A DNA stretch of 64,000 nucleotides, from NCBI RefSeq assembly GCF_031179985.1, contig NZ_JAPSHJ010000014.1, positions 1 to 64,000 of the forward strand, given 5' to 3'. Numbering within the stretch: position 1 is the first letter of the stretch; each line of letters begins with the position of its first letter. This stretch comes from Arthrobacter sp. (GTDB lineage: Bacteria; Actinomycetota; Actinomycetes; Actinomycetales; Micrococcaceae). Shown piece by piece: positions 6,131 through 32,465 of this stretch. Position numbers and translations under genes: made by a program. The notes under the pieces are model-generated. The model did no database searches, was not told where the DNA came from, and saw only the letters and a program-made list of their open reading frames with translations.

Positions 6131-6254
6131 AATGCTTGGGTAGGCTATGGCGGGTAACGGAGAGCCCTGTATCGGGTCCGTCTTGTCTTTTATGGTCTTT
6201 GGTTGATCTTGTGCTGCTTTTGGTGGCTTCTTATTGCGGGGGAATTGTAGAGCT

Positions 6255-12200: not shown

Positions 12201-12350
12201 CGGTCCTGGGGGAGGCTGACCATCGACTGCACCAAGGACATCTATGGAAACGGAACACCTTGGTACCGGCTCACGGAATCAGCCAAGAGTGGTTGGTACG
12301 TCAAGTCCACAACAGTCGATCTGTATGGTGCGAGGCCCGGCGGATGCTGA
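6255..12350 (+). CDS. Giant membrane-anchored Ig/cadherin-like and fibronectin type III protein
   Basis: Surface protein of 2031 residues, the probable end product of the locus. One N-terminal membrane segment (about 14-38) is followed by a propeller-like region to about 365 (repeats such as [11 protein letters not shown] and [13 protein letters not shown]) and a charged linker. About ten tandem Ig/cadherin-like repeats follow (about 395-1470), marked by DNDSDPDGD-type probable Ca-binding loops. Next are at least four FN3 domains from about 1475 ([69 protein letters not shown]). A Cys-rich, SH3-like cap ends in GGC. I prefer GTG 6255 to the track's TTG 6234 because GGGGGAA lies 10-11 nt upstream. 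Base composition changes sharply at about 7340. It corresponds in context to the fn3 gene of bifidobacterial PFNA clusters. Confidence 0.85.
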
Positions 12351-12461: not shown

Positions 12462-13433
12462 ATGACCATGACAACTGAGCAGGCCGCCTGGTTTGCAGGA
12501 ACATTCGAGAAGCTCGTTGCCAACGTCGGCCACGCCGTGCTCGGTAAAGCACACGTTATCCGTTTGACTTTTACGGCCATGCTCGCGGAAGGCCATGTGC
12601 TGTTCGAGGACGCCCCGGGCACTGGTAAGACGTCGCTGGCCCGGGCGTTGGCGGCGACCGTTCAAGGTTCAAACAACCGCATCCAGTTCACCCCGGATCT
12701 CCTGCCTTCGGATGTTACCGGCGTGACCATCTATGACCAGAAGACCCAAAAGTTTGAGTTCCATAAGGGGCCGATCTTCAACAACATCGTCCTCGCCGAC
12801 GAAATCAACCGCGCCTCGCCCAAGACCCAGTCCGCGCTCCTGGAGGTCATGGAGGAGTCCCGCGTGACGGTAGACGGCGTCACGTACGAGGCCGGGCGCC
12901 CGTTCATGGTGATGGCAACCCAGAACCCTATCGAGCAGGCGGGCACCTACCGCCTGCCGGAGGCACAGCTGGACCGGTTCCTCATGAAGACTTCCATCGG
13001 CTACCCTGACCACGCCTCAACTGTCCAGATCCTGGGTGGCAACAACCTTAAGGACCGGTCGAAGGACATTTCGCCGGTGATCACCACCCAGGCGATCGCT
13101 GACATGGCTGACCTGGCCGCCACCACCCACGTGGACACCGCCGTGCTCGAATACATCTCCCGGCTCTGCGAGGAGACCCGCAACGCCCCTGAGACCCGCC
13201 TGGGCGTCTCTGTGCGCGGGGCCTTGGCCATGGTTCGCGCGGCCAAGGTCTGGGCAGCAAGCCAAGGCCGGAATTTCGTTCTTCCGGACGACATCAAGGA
13301 CCTTGCCGGCGTCGTATGGACTCACCGCTTTGTGATGGACCCCGAGGCCGAATTCTCCGGAGCCACCCCCGAGGCAATTCTGGCGCGTGTGCTTGCCGAC
13401 GTGGCAGCTCCGCAGCAGCGCGCCAACGTTTAG
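12462..13433 (+). CDS. MoxR-family AAA+ ATPase
   Basis: MoxR proteins are AAA+ ATPases that act as chaperones in assembling or activating membrane or extracellular complexes, typically with a DUF58 partner. The Walker A motif is EDAPGTGKTSLA (about residues 47-58) and Walker B is IVLADEINRA. Sensor 1 reads ATQNPIEQ and the arginine-finger region is LPEAQLDRF. The length of 323 residues is normal. AAGGAAAAGGA precedes the ATG. It is followed by the DUF58 and transglutaminase-like genes, the classical MoxR/DUF58/TgpA triad, and corresponds to the aaa-atp gene of PFNA clusters. Confidence 0.93.
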   Translation: MTMTTEQAAWFAGTFEKLVANVGHAVLGKAHVIRLTFTAMLAEGHVLFEDAPGTGKTSLARALAATVQGSNNRIQFTPDLLPSDVTGVTIYDQKTQKFEFHKGPIFNNIVLADEINRASPKTQSALLEVMEESRVTVDGVTYEAGRPFMVMATQNPIEQAGTYRLPEAQLDRFLMKTSIGYPDHASTVQILGGNNLKDRSKDISPVITTQAIADMADLAATTHVDTAVLEYISRLCEETRNAPETRLGVSVRGALAMVRAAKVWAASQGRNFVLPDDIKDLAGVVWTHRFVMDPEAEFSGATPEAILARVLADVAAPQQRANV

Positions 13434-13484: not shown

Positions 13485-14834
13485 ATGTTCCGCAGCACTC
13501 CGTTAAACCGGCTTGCTGAACGCCTCCGGCGGTTCCTTCCCGCCGGGCAGTTGCTGCCCACAAAAAACAGAGGCAACCTCCTCCGTCCCTCCGCAGTCTG
13601 GACGGAAGCCCTCAGCACCGCCCAACTCGCGGTGGAGCCCGTCTGGCGCGTGGTCCGGGCGCAGTGGCTGCGCTTCGTCTGGCCTGTGCTCTCCATCGTC
13701 AGCGTGCTGGGCTGGTCCATTCTGGCTGGGTCCATCCTGCTGTGGGTGGTTGGGCAGTCCTTCGGCTGGCAGGAGGCCAAAGCAGCGGCCATAGCGGCCT
13801 TCGTGCTCTTCGTCATCGCCGTGGGATTTGTCCTTGGCAGGTCATCTTATGGGGTGATCCTGGACCTCACCCGCACCAGGGTGGCTGTTGGCGACAGTGC
13901 GGTAGGAAGCATCGCAGTATCAAACACCTCAGCCCGCCCGCTGTTGCCGGCTGCCCTTGAACTGCCGGTGGGCGCAGCGACCGCCATTTTCCACCTGCCG
14001 CGGATGAAACCCGCCCAGGTTCACGAGGATCTCTTCACTATTCCTACGGCACGGCGTGCGGTCATCGTTGTTGGCCCGGTGCGTTCCGTCCGGGCGGATC
14101 CCCTGCACCTGCTGCGGAGGCAGGTTCTGTGGACAGATCCTGAGGACCTTTATGTCCACCCCCGGACAGTGGCTTTGGCCGGATCGGCTGCCGGCTTTAT
14201 CCGTGACCTCGAAGGAATGCCCACCACTGACCTGTCAAGCGCCGACGTTTCCTTTCACGCGTTGCGCGACTATGTGCCTGGTGACGACAGACGCCATATC
14301 CACTGGAAGACGACGGCGCGGACCAACAAGCTGATGGTCCGCCAGTTCGAGGAGACGCGCCGCGCGCACCTGGCCATCTCCCTGTCCATCAACACGGACG
14401 AGTACGGTTCCGAGCATGAATTCGAGATGGCCATCTCAGTGGCTGCGTCCATTGGGCGCCAAGCCATCAGGGAGCAGCGTGAGCTTGATGTCCTCACCCA
14501 AAAAGGACCGCTCCGTTGCGAGACCGGCCGGAACATGCTTGACGACATGACCAGGATCGTTGGCACCCCCATGCGCAAGACTGCAGTGGACCTCGCCCGG
14601 ACGCTGGCCGACAAAGTCCCCAATGCTTCAGTCGTGTTCTTCATCGTTGGCAGCCAGGTCACCCCTGCCCAGCTGCGATCGGCGGCTGCATCCGTCCCTG
14701 CAGGCGTCCGCAGCCTGGCAGTTCGCCTTCAGCCCGGCGCCGCGCCCTCACGGGCCAACATAGCGGACCTGACTGTTCTCACCTTGGGAGACCTCTCGGA
14801 TCTGGCCATCGTCCTTAGAAAGGCAGCAGCATGA
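13485..14834 (+). CDS. DUF58 domain-containing membrane protein
   Basis: 449-residue partner of MoxR. Two adjoining membrane segments lie at about residues 65-120, followed by a beta-rich region. The DUF58 signature YVPGDDRRHIHWKTTARTNK with LMVRQFEE is at about 260-290, within a von Willebrand A-like C-terminal half. Role in the family: a membrane adaptor working with MoxR; no enzymatic activity is established. The last 4 bases overlap the start of the transglutaminase-like gene (ATGA). Confidence 0.9.
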   Translation: MFRSTPLNRLAERLRRFLPAGQLLPTKNRGNLLRPSAVWTEALSTAQLAVEPVWRVVRAQWLRFVWPVLSIVSVLGWSILAGSILLWVVGQSFGWQEAKAAAIAAFVLFVIAVGFVLGRSSYGVILDLTRTRVAVGDSAVGSIAVSNTSARPLLPAALELPVGAATAIFHLPRMKPAQVHEDLFTIPTARRAVIVVGPVRSVRADPLHLLRRQVLWTDPEDLYVHPRTVALAGSAAGFIRDLEGMPTTDLSSADVSFHALRDYVPGDDRRHIHWKTTARTNKLMVRQFEETRRAHLAISLSINTDEYGSEHEFEMAISVAASIGRQAIREQRELDVLTQKGPLRCETGRNMLDDMTRIVGTPMRKTAVDLARTLADKVPNASVVFFIVGSQVTPAQLRSAAASVPAGVRSLAVRLQPGAAPSRANIADLTVLTLGDLSDLAIVLRKAAA

Positions 14835-17458
14835 GCTCCGCCACGGGACTCCGCCCCCGGCGCCAGCCCGCACCACCCGCCCAAGTGTCCCCGTTCCTGG
14901 ACGGGCGGCCGGTGTGGCACTTCGCTGTCGATGTTGCAGCGCTAACCGTACTCCTGGGTCTGGGCGTGCTGGGCTTCAGCCTCAGTTACGGCGGTGACCC
15001 TTACTACCTTGTGGCCGGATGTGGTGGAATCGGCCTGGGCCTGGGCATAGCAGCCCTCAACGCCCACCTTCGGCTTGGCCTGCTGATCACGGCTGCGATT
15101 GCTTTGGCCGCCTACTTGATCCTCGGTACTGCACTTGCGGTTCCGGGCGCGGCTATTGCCGGGTTCATCCCCACCCTGGATTCTTTGCGGACCCTGCTGC
15201 TGGGCGTGGTCTTTTCCTGGAAGGACATGCTGACAGTAGGTGTGCCGGTTGGCACCGCCGGTGGCGTGCTGATCGTCCCCTTCCTGAGTTCCTTCATCAC
15301 GGCCCTGGCCGCGGCCCTTCTGACCTGGCGCTCGAAGGGGCCATACTGGCCGTTGCTGCCGATCCTGGTGCTCTTTGTCACCGGCATCGCCTTCAGCACC
15401 AATGCAAGCTTCCTCACGGTGGAACGAGGGATCGCCCTGACGGTGGTGGCCATTGCCTGGGCTACCTTCCGGCGTGATGCCCTGCGGCGCAGCGATACCC
15501 GCAAGGTCTCGGTTAACAGCCCGCAGACTGATGCCTCAACCGCCCGCAGGGCACGGACCCGGCGGTTGGCCACGGCGGCGGGTGTCATTGCACTCAGTGT
15601 CGGCATCACGGCCCTGGTCTCGCCCCTGGTCACCGCCAGTGATGACCGCCGCGTCCTCAGGAATACGATCGTTCCGCCCTTCGACCCCAAGGACTACATC
15701 ACCCCGCTGGCCAGCTTCCGGACCTTCGTGAAGGACAAGAAGGACGACAAGCTCTTCGTGGTCAAGGGCCTGCCCAAGGACGGGCGCGTTCGCCTCGCTG
15801 CACTTGATGCGTTCAACGGAACCAACTACAACATCGATCCCAACAGCTCAGGGAACTTCAGCAAGGTCGGTGACGCCAAATCCATCAACACGCTGGCGGA
15901 CACCAACGGCATCGTGCCCACGGTTGACTACACCCTGGAAATCACCGTCGAGGACTACCAGGGCTATTTCGTTCCTGGGGGGCGGAAAACTACGGGCCTG
16001 AGCTTTTCGCAGGCCTCGAGCAATGCAGCCGCAGGGCTGTACTTCAACTCCGGCACCGATACCGCCGTGACCACGAAAGGGCTGTCCAAGGGGGACTCGT
16101 ACAGCATCCAGATAGCGGATCCCGTCAAACTCGAACACGGCCAGCTCACTCAATATGACTTTGCCAAGTTCAGCATGCCTGATGCCGTTGAAGTCCCGCC
16201 CGTGGTGGGATCCCAGGCAAATGACCTTTCTGTCGACGCTCCGACCGCCGTGGACAGGGTCCGCCAGATCGAAGCGCATTTCCAGAAAAAGGGCGCCTTC
16301 AGCAATGGCCTCATCACCGAGGGCCAGTTGCCAAGTGTCTCCGGCCATGGGTCCGCACGGATCAGGAACCTCCTGACAGCAAAGCAGATGCTCGGCGACG
16401 ACGAACAGTACGCCGTGGCCATGTCATTGATGCTCAGGCATCTCGGCATCCCCTCCCGGGTGGTCATGGGGTTCTATCCCGATCCCAAGAGCCCTGAAAA
16501 CGGGGCAGGGGAAGTCAACATCACAGGTAAGGACGTGCACGCCTGGGTTGAGGTCGCTTTCGACCGTGTGGGGTGGGTGGCTTTCGACCCGACTCCGCCT
16601 AAGGACAACGTTCCCATCCCTCCGGATCCGGAGAGCAAGTCCAAACCCAAACCCCAGGTCCTGCAGCCGCCGCCCCCGCCACAGGAGCCGGCTGAGCTGC
16701 CGCCGGACTCCTCCCCGGACGCATTGGATGCAGATCAGAAGAAGAACAATCCCTGGCTCTTCTGGGGACCCATTTTGGCCGCCATCGGTGTGGCCATGAT
16801 CCCGATAGGCATCCTTGCGCTGCCCCTGCTTCTGATTGCGTTGCTGAAGGGCCGGCGTCGAAAGGCCCGGTTCACGGAAGGCGATCCAGCCCGCCGTGTT
16901 GGCGGGGGGTGGAACGAACTCCTGAGCCTTGCAACTGACATGGGTGCAGGAGTGGATCATCGCGCCACCCGGCGGGAATCCGCCGTCGTCCTGGCTGACG
17001 CGTTCCCCGCAACCCAGTCGACTACCACCTTGCTGGCACACCGCGCCGATGCGAGCATCTTCGGCGCGGGGCAACCGAGCGAAGCGGAAGTCCGGGAATA
17101 CTGGACCATCGTGGAAGGATCACTCAAGGACATGACGGGAGCTGTGGGTTTCTGGCGCCGCCAGCAGGCCAGGTTCTCGCCGCGGTCCCTCCTTGCCGAT
17201 GGCAGGACGGCCCTCAGCCTGCGCGGTATGCGGCCGGTCTTGGGTGCGGGGCGCCAGCCTGAAGGAAAGGCCGGGCCTGAAGGAAGGGCTGAGCCCCCAG
17301 TCAAGGCAGAGACCCGTCCGGCCGCTTCTGTACCCTCCCGGGAGGTGCCATCCGCGGTGGCACCCTTCGGCGACGCGCCACGAGGACGCCGCGGACTTCG
17401 CGGCCAGTCCAATCCGGAGGACGACGGCACTGTCAGGAAGAACCGCAACGAGCAATGA
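14831..17458 (+). CDS. Transglutaminase-like (TgpA-type) membrane protein lacking the catalytic cysteine
   Basis: 875 residues: about six N-terminal membrane helices (30-270), an extracellular transglutaminase-like domain, a Pro-rich linker (PQVLQPPPPPQEPAE), one more membrane helix near 640-665 and a cytoplasmic tail. The catalytic His is in DVHAWVEV (about 570) and the Asp in AFDPTPP. At the position where the family has Cys (GxCEQFA), the sequence reads GDDEQYAVAM near residue 520. The thiol nucleophile is therefore missing and the domain may bind or scaffold peptides rather than cross-link or cleave them. It corresponds to tgm of the PFNA cluster and overlaps both neighbours by 4 bases. 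Confidence 0.85.
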   Translation: MSSATGLRPRRQPAPPAQVSPFLDGRPVWHFAVDVAALTVLLGLGVLGFSLSYGGDPYYLVAGCGGIGLGLGIAALNAHLRLGLLITAAIALAAYLILGTALAVPGAAIAGFIPTLDSLRTLLLGVVFSWKDMLTVGVPVGTAGGVLIVPFLSSFITALAAALLTWRSKGPYWPLLPILVLFVTGIAFSTNASFLTVERGIALTVVAIAWATFRRDALRRSDTRKVSVNSPQTDASTARRARTRRLATAAGVIALSVGITALVSPLVTASDDRRVLRNTIVPPFDPKDYITPLASFRTFVKDKKDDKLFVVKGLPKDGRVRLAALDAFNGTNYNIDPNSSGNFSKVGDAKSINTLADTNGIVPTVDYTLEITVEDYQGYFVPGGRKTTGLSFSQASSNAAAGLYFNSGTDTAVTTKGLSKGDSYSIQIADPVKLEHGQLTQYDFAKFSMPDAVEVPPVVGSQANDLSVDAPTAVDRVRQIEAHFQKKGAFSNGLITEGQLPSVSGHGSARIRNLLTAKQMLGDDEQYAVAMSLMLRHLGIPSRVVMGFYPDPKSPENGAGEVNITGKDVHAWVEVAFDRVGWVAFDPTPPKDNVPIPPDPESKSKPKPQVLQPPPPPQEPAELPPDSSPDALDADQKKNNPWLFWGPILAAIGVAMIPIGILALPLLLIALLKGRRRKARFTEGDPARRVGGGWNELLSLATDMGAGVDHRATRRESAVVLADAFPATQSTTTLLAHRADASIFGAGQPSEAEVREYWTIVEGSLKDMTGAVGFWRRQQARFSPRSLLADGRTALSLRGMRPVLGAGRQPEGKAGPEGRAEPPVKAETRPAASVPSREVPSAVAPFGDAPRGRRGLRGQSNPEDDGTVRKNRNEQ

Positions 17459-19065
17459 CACATGACGCAGAGCGCTGCCAGCGCTGCCAGCAGCTGATCC
17501 GCGCCGGAGCCACTTTTTGCACAGCATGTGGCGCCCCGTTGAACAACAGGGCCGCCAGGAGTATCCGCAACGTGAATCATGGTCAGCAGTCACGGGTGGA
17601 GGGGCTGTCCGCGCACCGCCCCTCAATACCCGGTAATATCCCGATAGTGCCCGCTCAACCGGGGCACAACTCCGGCCACGGAAATGGGGGCCTTGGACGA
17701 GGGGGAGAAGCCGCAATGGCAGCACGACTTGAGGTAGTACCCGCAGCTGCCGGTAAACGCCTTGGCGGTGCCGTGCTCGACTGGCTTCCCGCCTTTGCCG
17801 TGCTGGCAGTCAGCTTCACCATCGGTTTCGCCGGTGTGACGCGGACGCTCAGCGGAGGCTTCATCATCTATGACACGTCCACGGTGGTGCTTCTGGGCGG
17901 AATCGGCTCGGCTCTCGCACTCGTGTACGCGCTGGTCCTGATGGCCATCGAAGGCCGCACGGGTAACACGCTCGGAAACCAGATCATGGGCATTCGCAGC
18001 GCCGACAAGGATGGCTACGCACCTGGCACTGGTCCCGTCTTTCTCCGCGGCGTTATTACGGGGGCAGGCATCATCCTTGGCATCCTGGCGGCGATTGTGC
18101 TGGTGGCCCTGAAAGCGTTCGATATAGCGCTCTGGATCGTTGCTCCGCTGTTCCTTCTGGGAAGCGCATGGGCTGTCATCGTGGTCGTCTCCAACACTTG
18201 GGATAAGAACGGCAATCTCCGCGGGTGGCACGATGCCGCTGCGAAGACGCTCGTGTTCGATATCAAGGCGGGCAGGAATCCTGTCACCACCGGCGGTATC
18301 CAGGGCCCTTACAGCTTCGCGCCGCTTGATCTCCCGCCGGTCCAACAGGTTCCGTCCCCGGTTGCCGGCGCTGCCCCAGCGGCACCGCAGGTAATAAACG
18401 CCCAGCAGCTGAACCTGCAGGGCAACCAGGCTTCTGAAGCTCCGGCTCCAGGCGTTGCCGCATTGGACCCGAACAAATGGCAGGCCCCTGCAACACCCCA
18501 GCCCTGGTCGGCCCCGGCTGCCGGGCAGGCTTCACCTCTGGCCCAACTGCCGGCGCAGGCCCAACTGCCGGCGCAGGCCCAGCTGCCGGCGCAGGCCCAG
18601 CCTGCACAGGTAAACCAGCCTGCCGCGCCAGCTCTACAGGCACCGGCATCCCAGCCCTATTTCGCCGTAGCCCATCCCGATGACGACCACGAGCGTACCC
18701 AGCTGAAGGGCGGCGCACAGCTGCCCGCGCCGTTGGCTGTCCTCCGGATCCGGCTCGACGACGGCCGCGACTTCGAGCTCGACCGCACCGTTCTGATCGG
18801 GAGGAATCCCGCTGCCCATTCCGGGGAGCAGGTAGCGCAAATACTGGCCATCCAGGATCCGGGCCGTTCCATTTCCAAAACCCATCTTCATCTCCTTTCG
18901 GACCGTGACGGGATCTGGGTCACTGACCGGAATTCCACCAACGGCAGCGCCGTCACCACCCCCGACGGCGTCCGCACACCGTTGCAGGCAGGCCAGCCGG
19001 CATACGTCAGCCCAGGTTCCACCGTCCACTTCGGTGACCGCACCTTTCACCTAGGACAGGCATGA
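17455..19065 (+). CDS. Zinc-ribbon / RDD membrane / FHA domain protein
   Basis: 536 residues in three parts. The N-terminal zinc ribbon has CQRC...CTAC Cys pairs (about 8-24). An RDD-type membrane domain follows (about 85-260, starting AGKRLGGAVLDWLPAF), and after a Pro/Ala/Gln-rich linker a C-terminal FHA domain (about 425-536). FHA residues for phosphothreonine binding are intact: IGRNP, SISKTH and NSTNGS. It would place a phosphothreonine reader at the inner membrane, probably reading phosphorylation by the kinase at 22047. The linker holds an 18-bp tandem repeat. Four-base overlaps join it to the genes on both sides. Confidence 0.85.
   Translation: MTHDAERCQRCQQLIRAGATFCTACGAPLNNRAARSIRNVNHGQQSRVEGLSAHRPSIPGNIPIVPAQPGHNSGHGNGGLGRGGEAAMAARLEVVPAAAGKRLGGAVLDWLPAFAVLAVSFTIGFAGVTRTLSGGFIIYDTSTVVLLGGIGSALALVYALVLMAIEGRTGNTLGNQIMGIRSADKDGYAPGTGPVFLRGVITGAGIILGILAAIVLVALKAFDIALWIVAPLFLLGSAWAVIVVVSNTWDKNGNLRGWHDAAAKTLVFDIKAGRNPVTTGGIQGPYSFAPLDLPPVQQVPSPVAGAAPAAPQVINAQQLNLQGNQASEAPAPGVAALDPNKWQAPATPQPWSAPAAGQASPLAQLPAQAQLPAQAQLPAQAQPAQVNQPAAPALQAPASQPYFAVAHPDDDHERTQLKGGAQLPAPLAVLRIRLDDGRDFELDRTVLIGRNPAAHSGEQVAQILAIQDPGRSISKTHLHLLSDRDGIWVTDRNSTNGSAVTTPDGVRTPLQAGQPAYVSPGSTVHFGDRTFHLGQA
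18543..18596 (+). repeat. Three-copy 18-bp in-frame tandem repeat in the RDD-FHA gene
   Basis: The unit CCAACTGCCGGCGCAGGC occurs three times head to tail, the third with one change. It encodes AQLPAQ repeats in the linker. Being in frame, copy-number change would lengthen or shorten the linker without a frameshift. Confidence 0.85.
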
Positions 19066-20141
19066 ACACCGAGCCGGACTCCACCACGCCTCCTCAGCAC
19101 GCCGAACACGGACTACAGCTGAGCTGCGGTTACGGAACGGACCGCGGATTGCGGCGGGAACTGAATGAAGATTCGTTCATTGCATCGGATCCGGTGTTTG
19201 CCGTGGCTGATGGGATGGGCGGCCATGAGGCGGGGGAGATCGCCAGCGGCATCTGTGTTCGGGTTTTGGCGGGAATGCCGCAACTGGCCACAGGCGAGCG
19301 TACCGCGACGGCCGCCGTCGTCCAGCAGTACCTGATGACGGCGGATGAGCGCATCCGGGAAGCCACCGGCTCAAGGGCAGGCACTACGCTCACGGGTGCC
19401 GTAGTGGTTGAGCAGATGGGCCTGCCATATTGGCTTGTGATGAACATCGGTGACTCCCGGACATATCGGCTCAGCCAGGGCGGATTCTCACAGGTCACCG
19501 TGGACCACTCCGAAGTCCAGGAACTGGTCGACGCCGGTGAGATCACGCCGGAGCAGGCAACCGTCCACCCTCGGAGGCACGTGGTGACGCGGGCCCTCGG
19601 CACGGGCGACGAAACCGAGGCGGACTACTGGCTCCTTCCCGTTGAAGAGGGCGACCGCATCCTGATCTGTTCGGACGGGCTCAATGCCGAACTCACCGAT
19701 GAGCACATCTTCCGAATCCTCAGTACTGTGGGCCACCCCCAGGATGCAGTTGACGCCCTGATCCAATCCGCACTTCGCAGCGGCGGCCGGGACAACGTCA
19801 CAGTCATCGTGGTTGACGCCAAGAACGTCCTGAACGACGCCGGCGCTGTCACCACAGCACCACGCTCGGTGGTTGCGGCCGAGGAAGAGGACACGCTTCC
19901 GAGGAACCTGATCGACGCCGGAATGGATGACTCGCAGCAGGAAAGTCACGAGGCTGGCGGAGAAAAGGATCCGTCGCCAGGTTCGGGAGCGGATTCGGAG
20001 CCAGATTCAGACGCGGGTTCAGCGGCGGTGCCGGAGACCACGCAAGAGGCGTCCGATACCGACATGGAACAGGCGCCACAGGCCGAAGGCAGCCCTGCCG
20101 CCGTCCAGGAAGACAGGGAGCAAGGTCATGGTCTCCAGTAG
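19062..20141 (+). CDS. prpC: PP2C-family Ser/Thr protein phosphatase
   Basis: Metal-dependent PPM phosphatase of 359 residues, the presumed opponent of the kinase at 22047. Motifs in order: TDRGLRRELNEDSF (motif 1), VADGMGGHEAGE (metal-binding Asp and Gly), GTTLTGAVVV, NIGDSRTYR, ICSDGLNAELTD and GGRDNVTVIVV (last metal Asp). The catalytic domain covers about residues 15-250. The last 100 residues form an acidic, low-complexity tail. No membrane helix is present, so it is cytoplasmic. It starts on the ATGA overlap with the RDD-FHA gene and overlaps the next FHA gene by 14 bases. It corresponds to prpC in PFNA clusters. Confidence 0.92.
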   Translation: MNTEPDSTTPPQHAEHGLQLSCGYGTDRGLRRELNEDSFIASDPVFAVADGMGGHEAGEIASGICVRVLAGMPQLATGERTATAAVVQQYLMTADERIREATGSRAGTTLTGAVVVEQMGLPYWLVMNIGDSRTYRLSQGGFSQVTVDHSEVQELVDAGEITPEQATVHPRRHVVTRALGTGDETEADYWLLPVEEGDRILICSDGLNAELTDEHIFRILSTVGHPQDAVDALIQSALRSGGRDNVTVIVVDAKNVLNDAGAVTTAPRSVVAAEEEDTLPRNLIDAGMDDSQQESHEAGGEKDPSPGSGADSEPDSDAGSAAVPETTQEASDTDMEQAPQAEGSPAAVQEDREQGHGLQ

Positions 20142-22050
20142 TTACAGCCCGGGGAGCTGGATCGGTGTTGTCCGGTCCGGCATGGCCGTATTGCTGCGTC
20201 CGGAGGCCGACCCCGCGCTGGTCCATTCCCTCTGGGGGCTGTTGGGAAATTCCCCCGAGGTCCATGAGGTCCTCCATGCTGTTACCAGTGCTTCCGGCGA
20301 ATCATTGGCTCAGATCCCGTCGTTCGGCATTGTGGACTTCACGCATTCCCTTCGCGTTTTCCTCCGCGGCGATATCGAGCTCACAGCCCACCTGACAGAG
20401 GGCCCTGTTGATCTCAACGGTCGTGATGTCACCACCTGGACTGAACGTCATCTGGCGGATCCACAGTGGTACACAGTGAAGGCTCCTGGCGGGAATGCCG
20501 GAGGCGCCGAGTTGCCGTTGGCCGATGGCGTTGTGCTGTTGCAAGGCCTGCGGATGGACCGTGAAGGGGTTTCTGCTGTGCAGGTTCCGCTGGCCAGGGT
20601 GCCCTCCGCGCTGCTGGCGGAACCCGATGTTCCCGAGCCCCAGCTCGTGGCAAGGCAACTGCCGGAACCGCCGGTCCAGACGCCGCAGGTGCCGGAACGG
20701 CCCGTAGAGGCTGTGCCGGAACTGGTGCCTGCTCCCGCCGTCGTGGTCCTCCCCGAAGACAACGTGCGCGAAGAGAACCTGCCGGAAGAAGACCTGCCGG
20801 AAGAGGACCTTCCCGAAGAGAACCTGCCGCAAGAGGACCTGCCGGAAGCGAACGCGCCGGAAGCAACCGATAAGGAAGCGGTTGATCACGGGGTCTCGCA
20901 GGAGACCGTGATGGGCATCCACGACGACGATGAAGAATATAATGACGACGTCGCCGACTCTGTTGAACCGGTTGAAGAACCTGATTCCGCCGCAGTCCTC
21001 TTTGTGCCCGAGGAGGTCGCGGCCGTCGAAATGACAGGCAGCTACGATCACCTCTGGGAAAAGACAGTGATGCGGAACATCGAGGATGCCGCTGTTCGGG
21101 TAGACCCGGATGCCGACGAGGCTGCCCAAGGGACAAGCGCTGGGCCTGCAGTGACCAGCAAGGAACCAGCAGAAGAGGTCCCTGAAGCAGCGGACCAACC
21201 TTTGGCAGTCTCCTTCCAAGAGCACGTCCAGGAGCCAGCCCAACAGCCTGCTGAGCCATCAGCCGCACCGCTCCAGCAGGGCGGTTTGATCGACTCGGTG
21301 CCTTGGCGCAGCGGTTCCGCGGCCTCCGGCTTGATGCCTCCTTCCTTTAGCGCACCGTCCAATCCCCAGCCGTCCAATCCACTGTTCATTGTGCCTTTCC
21401 GTGGGCAGCCGAACATGCCCGCGTCCGGCAATCGGTCCGAGCAGCCGCTCCCGGTGGTAGCGCCCGTCCTGCCGCTGGTGGACGACAGTGACCATGACGG
21501 TCAGACCATCATGAAAAGTGATCTGGCCGGAATGGCAGCAGCCGGCCAGGCTTCCGTCCCCGGCAACGGTGACGCGAACGGTGGCGGGACAGGGCCCAGG
21601 GTCCTCGCCCGCGTTTGCCCGCTAAACCACGCAAATCCTCCTACTCATTCCGAATGCTCCACGTGCCACCAGCCTCTTCCCGATGATGCAGTCCAGGTTC
21701 CGCGGCCTGCGCTGGGCCGGATGCGGGTGTCCACGGGCGAGCTGATAGATCTGGACCAGTCGATGATTGTGGGGCGGCAGCCTTCTGTTTCCCGTGTTCA
21801 GGGCGGAGTCATGCCCAGGCTCGTCCAGGTGGCCAGCCCGAGCGGAGACATCTCACGTTCCCACGTGGAGGTGAGGCTCGAGGGCTGGCACGTTATGTTA
21901 TGCGATCTGAAGGCCACGAACGGCACAGTCCTGGTCCGCGAGGGGCAATCTCCACGGCGGCTGGCTCAAGGTGAGATGGCCATTCTCCTGGACGGGGACA
22001 TCGCCGAACTCGGTGATGACATTTCCTTACGGTTTGAGGAGATCCGTTGA
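20128..22050 (+). CDS. Zinc-ribbon and FHA domain protein
   Basis: 640 residues. The N-terminal 150 residues (SYSPGSWIGVVRSGMAVLLR onward) form a compact domain I do not recognise. A long acidic low-complexity middle with pentapeptide repeats follows, then a zinc-binding motif VCPLNHANPPTHSECSTC (about 494-512) and a C-terminal FHA domain (about 530-640) with intact VGRQP, ISRSH and KATNGT. The track ORF starts at 19927, but that part reads Arg-rich in the PP2C gene's alternative frame. ATG 20128, preceded by GGGAGCAAGG, is the real start. It corresponds to fha of PFNA clusters and should read phosphothreonine marks. Confidence 0.82.
   Translation: MVSSSYSPGSWIGVVRSGMAVLLRPEADPALVHSLWGLLGNSPEVHEVLHAVTSASGESLAQIPSFGIVDFTHSLRVFLRGDIELTAHLTEGPVDLNGRDVTTWTERHLADPQWYTVKAPGGNAGGAELPLADGVVLLQGLRMDREGVSAVQVPLARVPSALLAEPDVPEPQLVARQLPEPPVQTPQVPERPVEAVPELVPAPAVVVLPEDNVREENLPEEDLPEEDLPEENLPQEDLPEANAPEATDKEAVDHGVSQETVMGIHDDDEEYNDDVADSVEPVEEPDSAAVLFVPEEVAAVEMTGSYDHLWEKTVMRNIEDAAVRVDPDADEAAQGTSAGPAVTSKEPAEEVPEAADQPLAVSFQEHVQEPAQQPAEPSAAPLQQGGLIDSVPWRSGSAASGLMPPSFSAPSNPQPSNPLFIVPFRGQPNMPASGNRSEQPLPVVAPVLPLVDDSDHDGQTIMKSDLAGMAAAGQASVPGNGDANGGGTGPRVLARVCPLNHANPPTHSECSTCHQPLPDDAVQVPRPALGRMRVSTGELIDLDQSMIVGRQPSVSRVQGGVMPRLVQVASPSGDISRSHVEVRLEGWHVMLCDLKATNGTVLVREGQSPRRLAQGEMAILLDGDIAELGDDISLRFEEIR
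20773..20862 (+). repeat. Six-unit 15-bp in-frame repeat (ENLPE/EDLPE)
   Basis: Six consecutive 15-nt units of the form GAGAACCTGCCGGAA encode ENLPE, EDLPE, EDLPE, ENLPQ, EDLPE and ANAPE variants in the acidic middle of the FHA protein. The last unit is the most diverged. Confidence 0.8.
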
Positions 22051-23891
22051 GTTCCAAACGTCCCCCCGCTCCACCACCCCGTATTCCCGGCTTCACCTAC
22101 GTCAGCCTCCTGGGCTCCGGCGGCTTTTCGGATGTGTACCTCTATGAACAGGACAGGCCCCGCCGCAAGGTGGCCGTCAAAGTTCTGCTTTCCGGCCTGA
22201 AAACTGATGGGGCCCGACGACGCTTTGAGTCTGAGGCCAACCTCATGGCTCAGCTGTCCTCGCACCCGTATATCGTGACCATCTTCGAAGCAGAAGTGAC
22301 CGACGACGGCCATTCCTATCTGGCCATGGAGTACTGTTCCAGGCCAAGTCTGGATATCAGGTACCGTCGTCAGCGTTTCAGCGTGGACGAAGTCCTCGCC
22401 GTGGGCATCCAGGTGGCCTCCGCCGTCGAAACCGCCCACCGTGCCGGCATCGCCCACCGGGACATCAAGCCCGCCAACATTCTGGTCACTGATTACAACA
22501 GGCCTGCCCTGACCGACTTCGGCATTTCAGGGACCCTGGGAAGCGACGCCGATGAGGACGCCGGGATGTCCATTCCCTGGTCCCCGCCGGAGCAGTTCCG
22601 GGACGGTCCGGTGGACGGCATCATGGTGGACGTTTGGGCGCTGGGAGCCACGCTGTACACCCTACTGGCCGGGCGGTCTCCCTTTGTCATGCCGGGTGCC
22701 GACAATTCCCAGCGTGAGCTGATTTCGCGTATCTCCAATATGCCGGTTCCACGGCTCGGCCGCGCCGACGTCCCTCAGTCCCTTGAGCTGGCATTGTCGA
22801 CGGCGATGGCCAAGTCCCCGACTTCCCGGTACTCCTCGGCTCACGCCTTTGCTCTTGCACTCCAGCGCATCCAGGCTGAACTGAACCTGTCCGTGACGCC
22901 CTTTGAGGTTTTGGAAGAGCCGCAGCACGACGACGGACACCCGGATGACGGCTTCGAAGAGACACGGGTTCGGAGCGTCGCTTCGATCGACCCCGAGTTG
23001 ACCGGCAGCGCTCCCACGTTCCCCGCACGTACCCGCCCCCTCGCCGGTGAACCGACCCGTCAGCCAGCCGGGCAGCCGATCGGGCCGAAGTCTCAGACGC
23101 CTGCTCCCTCGGTGGCTCCTCCACCTGCTTCCCAGGTACCGGGGCCACAGTTGTTCACGCCCAAACCCGAGGATCGTACGGAGGTTGGATGGCAGGTTCC
23201 CGGCACGGCTTACGCAGCGGGGAACACCACCGAACAGGACGATTCAGCCCAGGCAACTATGCTGCGCGGACCAAGGGCGGTAGCTCCGGCCCGGTCAGCT
23301 GACGGCCTTGGCCCACAGGCTGGCGCTGGCCCACAGGCTGGCGCTGGCCCACAGGCTGCCCCTGGACAGTACGCTGCACATCAGGACGTCCGGGATGATG
23401 ACTTGGCCGCCACGGTCAACCGGCCCCGGGCAATGGGAGCGGCAGATGCCGAGGAAGGTCCCGGGGACACCGGGAAACGGAACCTCTGGCTGGCAATCGC
23501 CGGTGGAACCATTCTGGTTGTGGCGATCATCCTCGGAATAACGTTGTCCCAGACGAGGCCCGAACCGCACGTAGTCGCTACTGAACAGTTCAGCCAGCCA
23601 CCCGCTGATCCCTTGGACGATGGCGTCGTTCCTGATGTCGAGAATTTGACGGCAGTCGATGGAGCACCGGGCAAGGTGATTTTCACGTGGACCAACCCCA
23701 GTCCGAAACCGGGCGATGTCTATAAATGGAACCTTGATGGCGGACCTGTCGAGTCCACGACTGAGACCAGGGCTGAGATTATTGCAAACCCGCCCGGAAA
23801 GTTCACGTGCATCTCGGTGATAGTAGTTCGTCAGGATGGCACTGCTTCGGCTGGACTGACCATGGGCTCACGCCTATGCCATTCACTCTAG
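22047..23891 (+). CDS. Membrane Ser/Thr protein kinase with FN3-like ectodomain
   Basis: 614-residue PknB-type kinase. The complete catalytic set is present: P-loop LGSGGFSDVYLY, VAVKVL lysine, catalytic loop HRDIKPANI (about 137-145), DFG (about 157), SIPWSPPEQF and DVWALG. A Pro/Gln/Gly-rich juxtamembrane linker contains an 18-bp repeat. One membrane helix (LWLAIAGGTILVVAIILGITL, about 478-498) leads to a 110-residue extracellular domain with FN3-like strands (KVIFTWTNPSPKPGDVYKW). The start is TTG in a TTGA overlap with the FHA gene, with GAGGAG 5-6 nt upstream. It corresponds to pkb2 of PFNA clusters and is the likely source of the marks read by the locus FHA domains. Confidence 0.92.
   Translation: MSSKRPPAPPPRIPGFTYVSLLGSGGFSDVYLYEQDRPRRKVAVKVLLSGLKTDGARRRFESEANLMAQLSSHPYIVTIFEAEVTDDGHSYLAMEYCSRPSLDIRYRRQRFSVDEVLAVGIQVASAVETAHRAGIAHRDIKPANILVTDYNRPALTDFGISGTLGSDADEDAGMSIPWSPPEQFRDGPVDGIMVDVWALGATLYTLLAGRSPFVMPGADNSQRELISRISNMPVPRLGRADVPQSLELALSTAMAKSPTSRYSSAHAFALALQRIQAELNLSVTPFEVLEEPQHDDGHPDDGFEETRVRSVASIDPELTGSAPTFPARTRPLAGEPTRQPAGQPIGPKSQTPAPSVAPPPASQVPGPQLFTPKPEDRTEVGWQVPGTAYAAGNTTEQDDSAQATMLRGPRAVAPARSADGLGPQAGAGPQAGAGPQAAPGQYAAHQDVRDDDLAATVNRPRAMGAADAEEGPGDTGKRNLWLAIAGGTILVVAIILGITLSQTRPEPHVVATEQFSQPPADPLDDGVVPDVENLTAVDGAPGKVIFTWTNPSPKPGDVYKWNLDGGPVESTTETRAEIIANPPGKFTCISVIVVRQDGTASAGLTMGSRLCHSL
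23310..23358 (+). repeat. 18-bp in-frame tandem repeat in the kinase linker
   Basis: GGCCCACAGGCTGGCGCT occurs twice in full and once in part (through GGCCCACAGGCTG), encoding GPQAGA repeats between the kinase domain and the membrane helix. Confidence 0.8.
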
Positions 23892-23949: not shown

Positions 23950-24654
23950 ATGGGGGATCTAGCAATAGATTTCTGTGGTGAGTGGCATGAGCCCTCAGAC
24001 GAGGATGTCTTCAGCATCGGCCGCGAGGGTGACCTTGAGGTGGACGACAACCCCTACCTGCATCGGAGATTCCTCCAGATAGCCCATTATGACGGGATCT
24101 GGTGGCTCAGCAACGTCGGCAGCATGCTCTCCGCCACCATCGCGGACGGTTCGGGCGGAATGCAGGCCTGGCTTTCACCGGGGGCCCGGATCCCGCTCGT
24201 CTTCAGCCACACCAACGTGATCTTTACCGCTGGTCCAACGACGTACGAGTTTGCCGTGCACCTGAAGACTCCGTCTTTCCGGCAGGAGGTCCGCGACGAC
24301 GAGAGCGGAGGGGATACCACCATCGGGCCCGTGGTCTTCACAGACTCCCAGAAGGCGCTGATCGTGGCCCTGGCTGAACCGATGCTCCGCCGTGAAGGAA
24401 CAGGCTTCAGCGCCATTCCATCGTCGGCCGCGGCAGCAAAAAAACTGGGCTGGGCCCTGACCAGATTCAACCGAAAGCTGGACAACGTGTGCGACAAACT
24501 GGACCGGGTCGGCGTGGCCGGACTGCGCGGCGGAGGCGGGAAGCTGGCCACCAACAGGCGCGCCCGTCTCGTGGAACACGCCGTGACATCCCATTTGGTA
24601 ACTGTCGATGACCTGTATTTGATCGAAAAGATGAGGGGAGTCGAAGAAGGGTGA
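23950..24654 (+). CDS. Degenerate FHA-like protein with C-terminal helical (HTH-like) domain
   Basis: 234 residues, family not recognised by name. The first 100 residues resemble an FHA beta-sandwich (DVFSIGREGDLEVDDNPYLHRRFLQIAHYDGIWWLSNVGS), but the usual SxxH is replaced by YLHRR and the Asn-Gly turn is absent. Phosphothreonine binding is therefore doubtful. A C-terminal domain (about 120-225) is helical and basic (KKLGWALTRFNRKLDNVCDKL, then GGGGKLATNRRARLVEHAV) and looks like a winged-helix/HTH module. AAGGAGG lies 9 nt before the ATG. The stop overlaps the EssC-type gene (GTGA). It could be a regulator or an adaptor for the ATPase. Confidence 0.6.
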   Translation: MGDLAIDFCGEWHEPSDEDVFSIGREGDLEVDDNPYLHRRFLQIAHYDGIWWLSNVGSMLSATIADGSGGMQAWLSPGARIPLVFSHTNVIFTAGPTTYEFAVHLKTPSFRQEVRDDESGGDTTIGPVVFTDSQKALIVALAEPMLRREGTGFSAIPSSAAAAKKLGWALTRFNRKLDNVCDKLDRVGVAGLRGGGGKLATNRRARLVEHAVTSHLVTVDDLYLIEKMRGVEEG

Positions 24655-27600
24655 GAATCCGACTGACGTTGCGCCGTGACCCGGCCGAAGCGAAGGATCT
24701 GGCCGTTACCGTGGACGGGCTGGCCACGGTGGCTGACATCGCCGTCGAGCTCTGGACCGCAGATCCGGAACGGCGCGGCACTCCGGCACCCCCCAACCTC
24801 ACCCTGAGCATCGACGAAGCCTTTGTGGCCGGCGGCATGACGGGCAACGTCCTCAACAGGACGGACAACCTTTTGGAGTCGGGGCTCCGGCCGGGTTCCG
24901 TGGTTTCGCTGACGCAGGTCAGTGACCAGTTCGCCGTCCCGGGGGCCAACCGGGGACCGGCCGCGGCAACGCTCCGGATCCTGACAGGCCCCGACGTCGG
25001 CCAGGAATTTTCGCTGCCCACCGGAACCAGCTACATCGGCCGGGGCCGGGACGTGGACATCCGGTTGTCGGACCCTATGACGTCGAAGCGGCACGCCCGG
25101 ATTACGGTGGGCGAGACGGTGGAGATCGTGGACACGAACTCCGCCAACGGGCTCATCATGGACGGACTACCCGTCACCCGGGCCACGTTGAACTCTTCAG
25201 ACACCCTGATGCTCGGAGACACCACGGTGGCTGTGGTGTCCCTGTCACGCAACCAGGCGGCAGCACCGACGTCGCCCCTCGTCGATTTCAACCGTTCCCC
25301 CAGGGTGGTGCCGCGCTTCGAAACTCCCAAGCGGATGCTGCCGGCCGGGCCGAAACGTCCGGATAACCACCCTTTTCCGTTCGTCATGCTCATCGCCCCG
25401 TTGATGATGGGCACCGTTCTGTGGATCGTGACCCAGAACGCCATGTCGGCGATGTTTATGGCCATGATGCCGCTGTTCATCGTCGGGCACTATGTGGACC
25501 AAAGGATGCGCAGTAAGCGGGAGCGGAAGGAACAACTGAAGCAGTTCCGTGAATCAATGGCAGCGTTCCGGCGTGACATCACCGAGCTCCAGCACGTTGA
25601 GCGTTCAGTACGCCTTCAGGAGGCGCCGTCCGTCAGCGACACAGTTGACTCCATCTACAAACTCGGCCCGCTCCTCTGGACCCACCGGCCTGAACACGGC
25701 GGCTTCCTGGGGATCCGTTTTGGCCTGGGTACTCTTCCGTCGAGAGTTCCCCTTGAGGAACCGGGCAGCAACGACACCGAGCCGGAGTTCATGCAGGAGA
25801 TCCAGGACTGCATTAAGCAGTTCCAGATCATCGAAGGCGTACCGGTGGTGTCCCAGCTCCGTTCAGCAGGCTCGTTCGGGCTGGCCGGCGCCCGTGGTCT
25901 CGTCGACGACGTCGCGCGGGGAGTAGTCCTCCAGGCCGTCGGTTTGCATTCGCCCGCGGAGGTGGTGGTTACTGCCATCACCTCGGCTCAATCAAAGGAC
26001 CGGTGGGGCTGGCTGCAATGGCTCCCGCACGTCGGATCAGGGCATAGCCCGCTGAACGGGGACCACCTCGCGGCCGGCTCGGCGAGCGGATCCACGCTCC
26101 TGGCCCGCCTTGAAGACCTGATCGAGCAGCGTGAGGCGGCGGCCAAGATCCAGGGTCCGCAGGCCAGGCCAGCCATCGAAGCGGACAAAGAGGAACTTCC
26201 CGGCCCGGTGTTGCCCTCGGTCCTGGTCATTGTCGAGGACGATGCTCCAGTGGACCGTGGACGGCTCACCCGGCTCGTGGAGCGGGGACCGGATTCAGGC
26301 GTGCACGTGATGTGGGTTGCTACCAGCGTCCAGTCCCTGCCTGCAGCCTGCCGGGACTTTATGGTGGTCGACGGCGATCACGGAACCACTACCGGTCAGG
26401 TCCGGCTCGGGCGCCACACATACCCTGTCAGCTGCGAGAGCCTGGACGCTGAGCTCGCCCAGCAGCTTGCACGGATGCTCTCACCCGTCGTTGACGTCGG
26501 TAAACCTGTCGACGACGAATCCGACCTTCCCCGGGCAGTGTCCTATGCGACGCTGATCGGGAAGGACTTCATGGACAACCCGCAGGCAGTGGCGGACCGC
26601 TGGAAGGAAAACAATTCCGTCCGGGCCACGGCCGTCCCCAACCGCAAGGACAACGGCACCCTCCGCGCCCTGGTCGGGTCGAAGGGCATAGAACCTCTGT
26701 ACCTGGACCTGAAAAACGAGGGTCCGCACGCCCTGGTGGGTGGAACCACAGGTGCCGGTAAATCGGAGTTCCTGCAGTCCTGGGTGATGGGCATGGCCGC
26801 CGCCTACAGTCCGGACCGCGTCAGTTTCCTGTTTGTCGACTACAAGGGCGGGGCAGCCTTCGCTGACTGCCTCCACCTCCCTCACACCGTGGGACTGGTT
26901 ACCGACCTGTCGCCGCACCTGGTGCGCCGTGCGTTGACATCCCTGCGGGCGGAGCTGCATTACCGGGAACACCTGCTGAACCGGAAGAAGGCCAAGGATC
27001 TTCTGGGCCTTCAACGCGAAGCTGACCCTGAAGCGCCGCCGTATCTGATCATCATCGTGGACGAGTTCGCGGCCCTCGCCACAGAAGTACCGGAATTCGT
27101 GGACGGGGTAGTGGACGTCGCTGCCAGGGGAAGGTCCCTGGGACTGCACCTGATCCTGGCCACACAGCGGCCGGCAGGCGTCATCAAGGAAAGCCTCCGC
27201 GCCAACACCAACCTCCGTGTCGCACTGCGGATGGCCGATGAGGACGACGCCACAGACATCCTTGGCGTTCCCACTGCCGCCTACTTCGACCCATCCATTC
27301 CCGGGCGAGGTGCCGCCAAGACCGGTCCGGGCCGCATCCAGGGCTTCCAGACCGGGTATGCGGGTGGCTGGACCACGGAAAAGCCACAGCGTCCCCAGAT
27401 CGACATCGTGGAAATGGCCTTCGGCTCAGGGGCAAGCTGGGAGCCTCCTGCACCGGAAAACCCCGTCAAGGAAGAGCCGGCCGGGCCCAATGATATTGCC
27501 CGCATGACCGCGAATATCATCAAGGCCGCTGACGTGCTGGCCATTGAAGCCCCGCGAAAGCCGTGGCTGAACGAGCTCGCCACGACCTACGATTTTTCCA

Positions 27601-29138
27601 AGCTCCCCAATCCCCGGACCGATGAGCGGCTCCTGCTGGGTGTGGCGGATGACCCCGCCCACCAGGACCAACCGACCGTCTTTTATGAGCCGGACCGGGA
27701 TGGCAACATGGCCATCTACGGAACCGGCGGTTCCGGCAAGTCGGCCGCCCTAAGGGGAATCGCCATCGCGGCGGCAGTGACACCCCGGGGTGGACCGGTT
27801 CATGTTTACGGCATTGACTGCGGTTCTTCAGGACTGAAAATGCTCGATGAACTCCCGCACGTCGGCGAGGTGATCAGCGGCGACGACGTCGAGCGGGTAG
27901 GGCGCCTGTTGCGCTGGTTGCGCGATATCGCCGATGACAGATCAGCCCGCTTCGCCGAAGTCCGGGCATCCACCATTGTGGAGTACCGCAAACTCTCAGG
28001 CAGGCCTGACGAAAAGCGGATCTTCGTGCTGGTGGACGGTATGTCGGCCTTCCGCGAGACGTATGAGTTCAGCAGGCTGTCTGCGCTCTGGGACATCTTC
28101 CTGCAGCTCGCCACTGACGGCCGGCCCCTTGGTATCCACCTTGTGGTGGCAGGAGACCGCCCCAACTCGGTACCGGCATCGCTGTTGGCATCCATCCAGC
28201 GGCGGCTTGTCCTGCGGTTGTCCTCTGAGGACGACTACATGTCAGTCGATGTGGCCAAGGACGTACTGAGCAAAACGTCTCCGCCAGGCCGCGGGCTCCT
28301 CGGGAACAACGAAGTTCAACTGGCCGTGCTCGGCGGGAACTCCAACCTCGCCCTCCAGGCAAGGGAAGTGCACAAGCTCGCCCAGGCGATGCTTCGTCAA
28401 GGGGTGGAGAAAGCGCCGCAGATCGAACGGCTGCCGGACCAGGTGGACCTGGACATCCTTCCGGCGGGACGTCCGGACGCGCCGGTGATCGGCGTGGACG
28501 ACGAAACGCTGCAACCAGCCGAAATTCTAGCGAAGGGACCGCTGCTGTTGGCCGGTCCCCCTGGTGCCGGCAGGACCGTGGCCCTGGTAACCATGGCCTA
28601 CGCCCTCCGCCGCTCCAACCCGAACACGGAGCTTATCTATATCGGATCCCGCCGCTCAGCAGTAGCTTCTCTCCGGGTCTGGAACCGCTCCCTCGTGGGA
28701 GTGGACGATGTCCAGGAGGCCCTGGACGATCTGACGGAGTACTCCACGGGCAACCCGGGGAGCCTCGCCATTTTTATCGAAGGCCTTACTGAATTCACGG
28801 ACACCATGGCGGAATCCGGCATCGGGCGCCTCGTGACGGCATCGATCAAGGCGGACCAATGGGTGGTGGGCGAATCCGAAACGTCCACCTGGTCCTCGGC
28901 CTGGTCCCTCGCGCAGCCGTTCAAGTCCGGCCGCCGCGGCCTGCTCATCAATCCGGGAGACATTGAGGGGGACAGCCTGCTCAACACCTCGTTGGGCCGG
29001 ATCAGCACTGAATTCATTCCCGGACGGGGCTACATCGTCGGGAGGGGCAAGGTGCGCAAACTCCAGGTGGCCCTGCCCCCGGAGGACCGTGCCTATGGGG
29101 AGTCAGCCCTCAGCGGGGTCGGTGCGGCCGGCGTCTAA
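24651..29138 (+). CDS. EssC-type FtsK/SpoIIIE secretion ATPase with ubiquitin-like and FHA domains
   Basis: 1495-residue type VII-like secretion motor. Layout: ubiquitin/YukD-like N-terminus (about 1-95), FHA domain (about 105-185) with intact GRGRD, SKRHAR and NSANGL, two membrane helices (about 243-283), then three FtsK/SpoIIIE ATPase modules. Module 1 has a full Walker A (GGTTGAGKSE, about 697-706) and Walker B (LIIIVDEFAAL). Module 2 has GTGGSGKS (about 1022) but Walker B IFVLVDGMSAF. Module 3 has GPPGAGRT, with Arg instead of Lys. This order is like firmicute EssC rather than mycobacterial EccC, which lacks FHA. The start is GTG overlapping the previous stop. No WXG100, EccB, EccD, EccE or mycosin gene is in the window. 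Confidence 0.85.
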   Translation: MRIRLTLRRDPAEAKDLAVTVDGLATVADIAVELWTADPERRGTPAPPNLTLSIDEAFVAGGMTGNVLNRTDNLLESGLRPGSVVSLTQVSDQFAVPGANRGPAAATLRILTGPDVGQEFSLPTGTSYIGRGRDVDIRLSDPMTSKRHARITVGETVEIVDTNSANGLIMDGLPVTRATLNSSDTLMLGDTTVAVVSLSRNQAAAPTSPLVDFNRSPRVVPRFETPKRMLPAGPKRPDNHPFPFVMLIAPLMMGTVLWIVTQNAMSAMFMAMMPLFIVGHYVDQRMRSKRERKEQLKQFRESMAAFRRDITELQHVERSVRLQEAPSVSDTVDSIYKLGPLLWTHRPEHGGFLGIRFGLGTLPSRVPLEEPGSNDTEPEFMQEIQDCIKQFQIIEGVPVVSQLRSAGSFGLAGARGLVDDVARGVVLQAVGLHSPAEVVVTAITSAQSKDRWGWLQWLPHVGSGHSPLNGDHLAAGSASGSTLLARLEDLIEQREAAAKIQGPQARPAIEADKEELPGPVLPSVLVIVEDDAPVDRGRLTRLVERGPDSGVHVMWVATSVQSLPAACRDFMVVDGDHGTTTGQVRLGRHTYPVSCESLDAELAQQLARMLSPVVDVGKPVDDESDLPRAVSYATLIGKDFMDNPQAVADRWKENNSVRATAVPNRKDNGTLRALVGSKGIEPLYLDLKNEGPHALVGGTTGAGKSEFLQSWVMGMAAAYSPDRVSFLFVDYKGGAAFADCLHLPHTVGLVTDLSPHLVRRALTSLRAELHYREHLLNRKKAKDLLGLQREADPEAPPYLIIIVDEFAALATEVPEFVDGVVDVAARGRSLGLHLILATQRPAGVIKESLRANTNLRVALRMADEDDATDILGVPTAAYFDPSIPGRGAAKTGPGRIQGFQTGYAGGWTTEKPQRPQIDIVEMAFGSGASWEPPAPENPVKEEPAGPNDIARMTANIIKAADVLAIEAPRKPWLNELATTYDFSKLPNPRTDERLLLGVADDPAHQDQPTVFYEPDRDGNMAIYGTGGSGKSAALRGIAIAAAVTPRGGPVHVYGIDCGSSGLKMLDELPHVGEVISGDDVERVGRLLRWLRDIADDRSARFAEVRASTIVEYRKLSGRPDEKRIFVLVDGMSAFRETYEFSRLSALWDIFLQLATDGRPLGIHLVVAGDRPNSVPASLLASIQRRLVLRLSSEDDYMSVDVAKDVLSKTSPPGRGLLGNNEVQLAVLGGNSNLALQAREVHKLAQAMLRQGVEKAPQIERLPDQVDLDILPAGRPDAPVIGVDDETLQPAEILAKGPLLLAGPPGAGRTVALVTMAYALRRSNPNTELIYIGSRRSAVASLRVWNRSLVGVDDVQEALDDLTEYSTGNPGSLAIFIEGLTEFTDTMAESGIGRLVTASIKADQWVVGESETSTWSSAWSLAQPFKSGRRGLLINPGDIEGDSLLNTSLGRISTEFIPGRGYIVGRGKVRKLQVALPPEDRAYGESALSGVGAAGV

Positions 29139-29166
29139 GGCAGATCTGGCGGTTGGAGTCCGCTGA

Positions 29167-32465
<3,299 letters not shown>

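Follow-up and report, generated by a model that had tools for sequence, protein, structure and literature searches.

A probable type VII secretion system in Arthrobacter with a motor ATPase carrying fused ubiquitin-like and FHA domains

We report here on a motor ATPase from Arthrobacter sp. that is very probably the membrane-bound motor of a type VII secretion system, complete but with its genes scattered over the genome, one that would be controlled by phosphorylation and would export proteins headed by a WXG100 domain. The motor is encoded in a stretch of 64,000 nucleotides (hereafter the window), and its proposed clients lie on other contigs of the same genome. What we observe is gene content, conservation, co-occurrence and domain motifs. 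A WXG100 protein tracks the motor through the family and a tree places the motor apart from T7SSa, T7SSb, T7SSd and T7SSe; we are therefore dealing with a type VII variant for which we found no description, and not with a motor that lacks clients.

A conserved motor with an unusual N-terminus

The motor ORF represents a real conserved protein, since full-length orthologues occur both within the genus (82–88% identity in seven congeners) and beyond it (about 64–70% in other genera of the family); the closest named record, from Arthrobacter sp. StoSoilB13, is 82% identical. The EssC model TIGR03928 scores 540 bits on the motor, which falls below that model's cut-off of 778 bits, and EccCa and EccCb score 344 and 288. 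Searched against the PDB sequences, the motor finds EccC (1e-63) and YukB (8e-58) of the T7SS as its best matches. The first-pass annotation, made from the sequence alone, had proposed the order ubiquitin-like domain, FHA domain, two helices and three ATPase modules, and profiles, fold model and motif scan bear this order out (Table 1). Of the two helices, one is supported by the hydropathy scan and the second, below the threshold, is likely. The Walker A motifs read GGTTGAGKS in module 1, YGTGGSGKS in module 2 and AGPPGAGRT in module 3, the last with R in place of K.

Because a fold search with residues 1–200 gave FHA alone among the matches listed, residues 1–95 were modelled separately. They adopt a strand-strand-helix-strand-strand-strand arrangement (pLDDT 83) that matches ubiquitin folds, including TmoB, UBX, ubiquitin variants and NEDD8 (TM-score about 0.5–0.66, best E 6e-4), so that structure prediction of the N-terminus, a check suggested in the first-pass annotation, indeed returns a ubiquitin fold. 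In the FHA domain, residues R131, S145, R147, H148 and N166 are kept in at least 90% of 41 relatives and, judged by its sequence, the domain is competent to bind phosphothreonine. An FHA domain had been considered unusual for an actinobacterial motor; this stands in comparison with the EccC of T7SSa but not for the phylum at large, where related FHA motors are matched in 40 of 397 genomes (E ≤ 1e-76).

Table 1. Features of the motor and its operon; positions are those of the window unless given as residues
Feature	Position	Strand	Evidence or remark
Giant surface protein of 2038 aa with one N-terminal membrane segment and repeats of bacterial Ig/cadherin-like and FN3 type	6234..12350	+	
MoxR AAA ATPase	12462..13433	+	AAA_3 5e-63
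DUF58 protein, predicted membrane segments	13485..14834	+	
Membrane transglutaminase-like protein, 875 aa	14831..17458	+	
Zinc-ribbon, RDD membrane domain and C-terminal FHA	17455..19065	+	
PP2C phosphatase	19062..20141	+	Stp1-type 6e-61
Acidic-linker protein with C-terminal FHA	19927..22050	+	
Ser/Thr kinase, intact HRDIKPAN and DFG motifs, membrane segment 482-500, short extracytoplasmic part	22047..23891	+	
234-aa protein, FHA-like N-terminal pattern	23950..24654	+	overlaps motor start by 4 bp
Type VII motor ATPase, 1495 aa, GTG start	24651..29138	+	ORF, domain profiles, fold model, motif scan
Motor ubiquitin-like domain	about residues 1-92		fold model
Motor FHA domain	about residues 104-197		profile matches at residues 109-196: Yop-YscD_cpl 6.1e-14, FHA 5.6e-11
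Motor membrane segment	about residues 242-285		hydropathy scan, 242-260 above threshold
Motor FtsK/SpoIIIE-type modules, three	Walker A at residues 697, 1023, 1301		FtsK_SpoIIIE 7.1e-54
Motor-ligA gap, 148 bp	29139..29286		relatives G006 and G124 (split over two contigs) hold the WXG100 gene there

The surrounding operon and its bifidobacterial counterpart

The motor gene is the tenth and final gene of an operon that runs, in the order of Table 1, from the giant Ig/cadherin/FN3 protein through MoxR, DUF58, transglutaminase, the zinc-ribbon-RDD-FHA protein, PP2C, the FHA protein, kinase and the 234-aa protein; several of these genes overlap by a few bases. The next gene is ligA, and a scan for a terminator 3′ of the motor gene found none. 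The ORF of the acidic-linker protein starts within the PP2C gene, so its true start probably lies near 20130. The 234-aa protein has no Pfam match and is kept beside the motor in relatives. The operon order is the same in a congener (locus L064) and in a second genus (L066), and most of the operon is recognised in a third (L065); another locus of the family (L054) has the transglutaminase and MoxR near the motor. In other classes of the phylum, one locus (L127) combines the motor with transglutaminase, DUF58, MoxR, giant protein, a homologue of the 234-aa protein, kinase and FHA protein, and five more (L130, L131, L137, L139, L142) hold subsets of the operon genes near it.

A similar gene set is known from bifidobacteria as the PFNA operon (pkb2, fn3, aaa-atp, duf58, tgm), which has so far been studied for genes that sense immune signals, without a role in secretion (PMC8430577). 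We reached a Bifidobacterium locus through the Collinsella motor; a 16S probe pattern for Bifidobacterium matched none of 395 genomes. The PFNA proteins of Bifidobacterium sp. ESL0784 match those of the window (TGase 4e-56, DUF58 4e-65, MoxR 4e-110, FN3 2e-171, kinase 1e-74), the giant protein being the homologue of FN3. Each of the five core genes thus has a homologue in the window operon, where fn3, MoxR, DUF58 and TGase also follow one another in the same order. PFNA, on the other hand, has neither a type VII motor nor WXG100, and its kinase gene precedes fn3 whereas that of the window lies near the end. The sole strong motor match in this strain belongs to a separate T7SSd locus; the kinase-FN3-MoxR-DUF58-TGase set is therefore able to work without a motor of the window type. 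We found no paper that links PFNA, or MoxR, DUF58 and transglutaminase, with type VII secretion in the part of the literature that was searched. Bifidobacteria may have lost a motor, or the gene set may have been recruited to a motor elsewhere. For the PFNA genes, the possibility arises that they originated within a secretion machine.

WXG100 proteins that track the motor

A search of the window gave no WXG100 gene, in agreement with the first-pass annotation, and neither EccD nor EssB was seen there. The annotation had offered two explanations: that the substrates lie elsewhere, or that the motor serves a client of another kind. The former is supported by the genome-wide search that it had recommended. 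In the source assembly (113 contigs, 95.8% complete), a profile search clearly recognises WXG100 genes in two places, one on contig C70 and one on C58. The C58 protein scores 26 bits against a Pfam cut-off of 27.3, and its gene sits between copA-like and EamA-like genes. In a sample of 151 genomes of the family, counting as motor orthologues those of about 62% identity or more, a C58-type WXG100 accompanies the motor in each of the 30 genomes that have it and occurs in one of the 121 others (Fisher p 8e-31, shared descent ignored). Furthermore, 15 of the 30 have it directly downstream of the motor, on the same strand and within less than 250 bp, which speaks against a client other than WXG100; adjacency was taken from coordinates, with a check of the sequence for G124, G006 and G053. 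The one exception, G146, carries a C58-type WXG100 domain on its contig C1 yet no motor beyond FtsK, possibly through a recent loss.

Among the relatives, G006 keeps the order motor-WXG100-ligA intact, and in the congener G124 the pairs motor-WXG100 and WXG100-ligA stand on two different contigs; from these arrangements, the WXG100 gene probably once stood between motor and ligA. The corresponding 148-bp gap of the window holds no readable remnant of it. The two WXG100 copies of G124 (L116:5535-5795 after the motor, L144:101-361 before ligA) are identical, as if a rearrangement had run through the gene.

The WXG100 on C70, although the best Pfam match, was rejected as the partner because it occurs in 139 of the 151 family genomes, with or without the motor. 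This orphan gene (G000:C70:23997-24281; L007:9494-9817, minus strand) adjoins a two-component sensor and lies near groEL.

A search with the C58-type WXG100 also matches the N-termini of at least four longer ORFs in the source genome, and every match of this query, short or long, falls within the same 31 of the 151 genomes. The protein on C89 joins a WXG100 head to a Peptidase_C2 domain (1.2e-17) with the motifs GDCWLLA, NHAY and NPWG, making it a calpain-like protease. The protein on C40 has a WXG100-like head, the motif GHSWG and a match to alpha/beta hydrolases that is weak (E 0.02, under the Pfam cut-off), and by these sequence features it is likely to be an alpha/beta hydrolase. Those on C45 and C47 combine WXG100-like heads with glycine-rich tails and are possibly membrane-active. 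By their heads, all of these larger proteins would be exported. Concrete candidate effectors, including the WXG100-calpain protein, can be named in a harmless soil genus.

Relation to the described type VII systems

In general terms the system conforms to type VII secretion, with an EccC/EssC-type membrane ATPase of tandem modules and a WXG100 protein tied to it. Its position among the types was examined with an unrooted tree of the module 1–2 region (73 rows), which covers T7SSa, T7SSb, T7SSd and T7SSe; T7SSc and T7SSf-j are absent from it, the T7SSb rows are two sequences from plasmids, and the T7SSe label of the Bacillota rows was drawn from neighbourhoods in two loci and the published description. 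A split at 100/98 leaves T7SSa EccC, T7SSb EssC, T7SSd and T7SSe on one side and, on the other, the window motor together with other actinobacterial motors that have ubiquitin-like (Ubl) and FHA domains. The comparison with EccC and EssC that the first-pass annotation had called for thus sets the motor apart from both and, on its sequence, the motor belongs to a large actinobacterial Ubl-FHA group outside T7SSa, T7SSb, T7SSd and T7SSe. This widespread group widens the spectrum of type VII systems known so far.

With the EccC of T7SSa (ESX), the motor shares three modules, a place in the membrane and WXG100 clients. It differs in carrying an FHA and a ubiquitin-like domain at its N-terminus and in its separate branch, and no EccD was found genome-wide by profile search. 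EccB likewise gave no match genome-wide, in a search whose control also matched nothing anywhere. The EssC of T7SSb in Bacillota resembles the motor in its N-terminal FHA and in having a ubiquitin-like partner. In the window motor, however, the ubiquitin-like domain is fused rather than separate, the FHA domain keeps the phosphothreonine motif and the branch is another one; a genome-wide profile search, with a control that worked, found no YukC/EssB.

The closest likeness in parts is to T7SSd (TsdA, C, D, H and I), described by Garrett, Higginson and Palmer in 2024 from Olsenella and Bifidobacterium, which combines a kinase, a WXG100 protein and a large protein with Ig-like character with an FHA motor whose motif is phosphothreonine-competent (PMC11217815). 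By parts list, the window system likewise has an FHA-bearing EssC-type motor, a membrane Ser/Thr kinase, WXG100 and a giant Ig-like protein that may be analogous to TsdI, again in an actinobacterium. That the system simply is T7SSd is nevertheless very unlikely. The tree parts the two motors at 100/98; T7SSd motors (Collinsella, Bifidobacterium) open with an EssC-like and not a ubiquitin-like stretch; and the 2024 survey reports no ubiquitin-like protein for T7SSd and mentions neither MoxR nor transglutaminase (PMC11217815). The window locus, on the other hand, adds MoxR, DUF58, transglutaminase, PP2C and further FHA proteins, its giant protein lacks a predicted C-terminal membrane helix, and in the source strain the WXG100 gene is unlinked to the motor. 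The system thus resembles T7SSd in its parts, yet differs from it in motor phylogeny and in the ubiquitin-like component that T7SSd lacks, and a filing as T7SSd was rejected in view of the tree and the N-terminal domain.

We consider the chances evenly balanced that this is a further actinobacterial type VII subtype outside a-j. It would be marked by a motor into which a ubiquitin-like subunit and an active reader of phosphothreonine are built and which is switched by kinase and PP2C, and by an envelope module of Ig/FN3 protein, MoxR, DUF58 and transglutaminase, of which PFNA would be the form after motor loss or before recruitment.

A model for export and its alternatives

We infer export and client recognition as follows. 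The motor would recognise WXG100-headed proteins, namely the one on C58 and no fewer than four of larger size, and drive them across the membrane, and its fused ubiquitin-like domain would take the role of EsaB/YukD. The FHA domain may bind a threonine that is phosphorylated by the operon kinase and reset by the operon PP2C, a tie suggested by gene placement; if it reads a phosphothreonine set in this way, assembly or firing of the motor would be under phosphorylation control, as we propose. The giant Ig/FN3 protein may be the part that spans the envelope or contacts the target, and the transglutaminase and the MoxR-DUF58 pair may mature or anchor it, the transglutaminase being linked to the motor by gene placement. 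The system is likely to be used in competition with other bacteria.

Two other readings have to be weighed. Given that the window has no WXG100 gene and that the motor's operon opens with the gene of the giant protein, the motor might export a product of its own locus, such as this giant protein, instead of WXG100 proteins. We regard this as unlikely: a hydrophobic segment of its own at the N-terminus would suit the giant protein to Sec, Bifidobacterium has the FN3 protein without a window-type motor, and it is the WXG100 gene that tracks the motor and follows it in half of the relatives. The FtsK_SpoIIIE domain of module 1 would also suit a DNA translocase of the FtsK/SpoIIIE kind. This is highly improbable, as FtsK models reach 51 bits on the motor, ten-fold under the T7SS models, and FtsK itself is matched at 3e-14 in the PDB search; the three tandem modules and the linkage to WXG100 also argue against it, and the genome has an FtsK-like gene elsewhere, on contig C93.

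Related motors

The source genome encodes a second FHA motor whose N-terminus is similar (G000:C29:3-3056; L014, minus strand); it is cut by the contig end and stands beside glycosyltransferase genes. Sister motors, 43% identical, occur in L047-L049, and in L047 and L048 an RDD-FHA gene and a nearby protein of 450 residues with a possible WXG-like head stand in place of the ten-gene operon. Finally, the Curtobacterium plasmid pTCL (L240:3012-11843) carries a WXG100 gene together with a related motor with FtsK/SpoIIIE domains, a compact plasmid-borne system.
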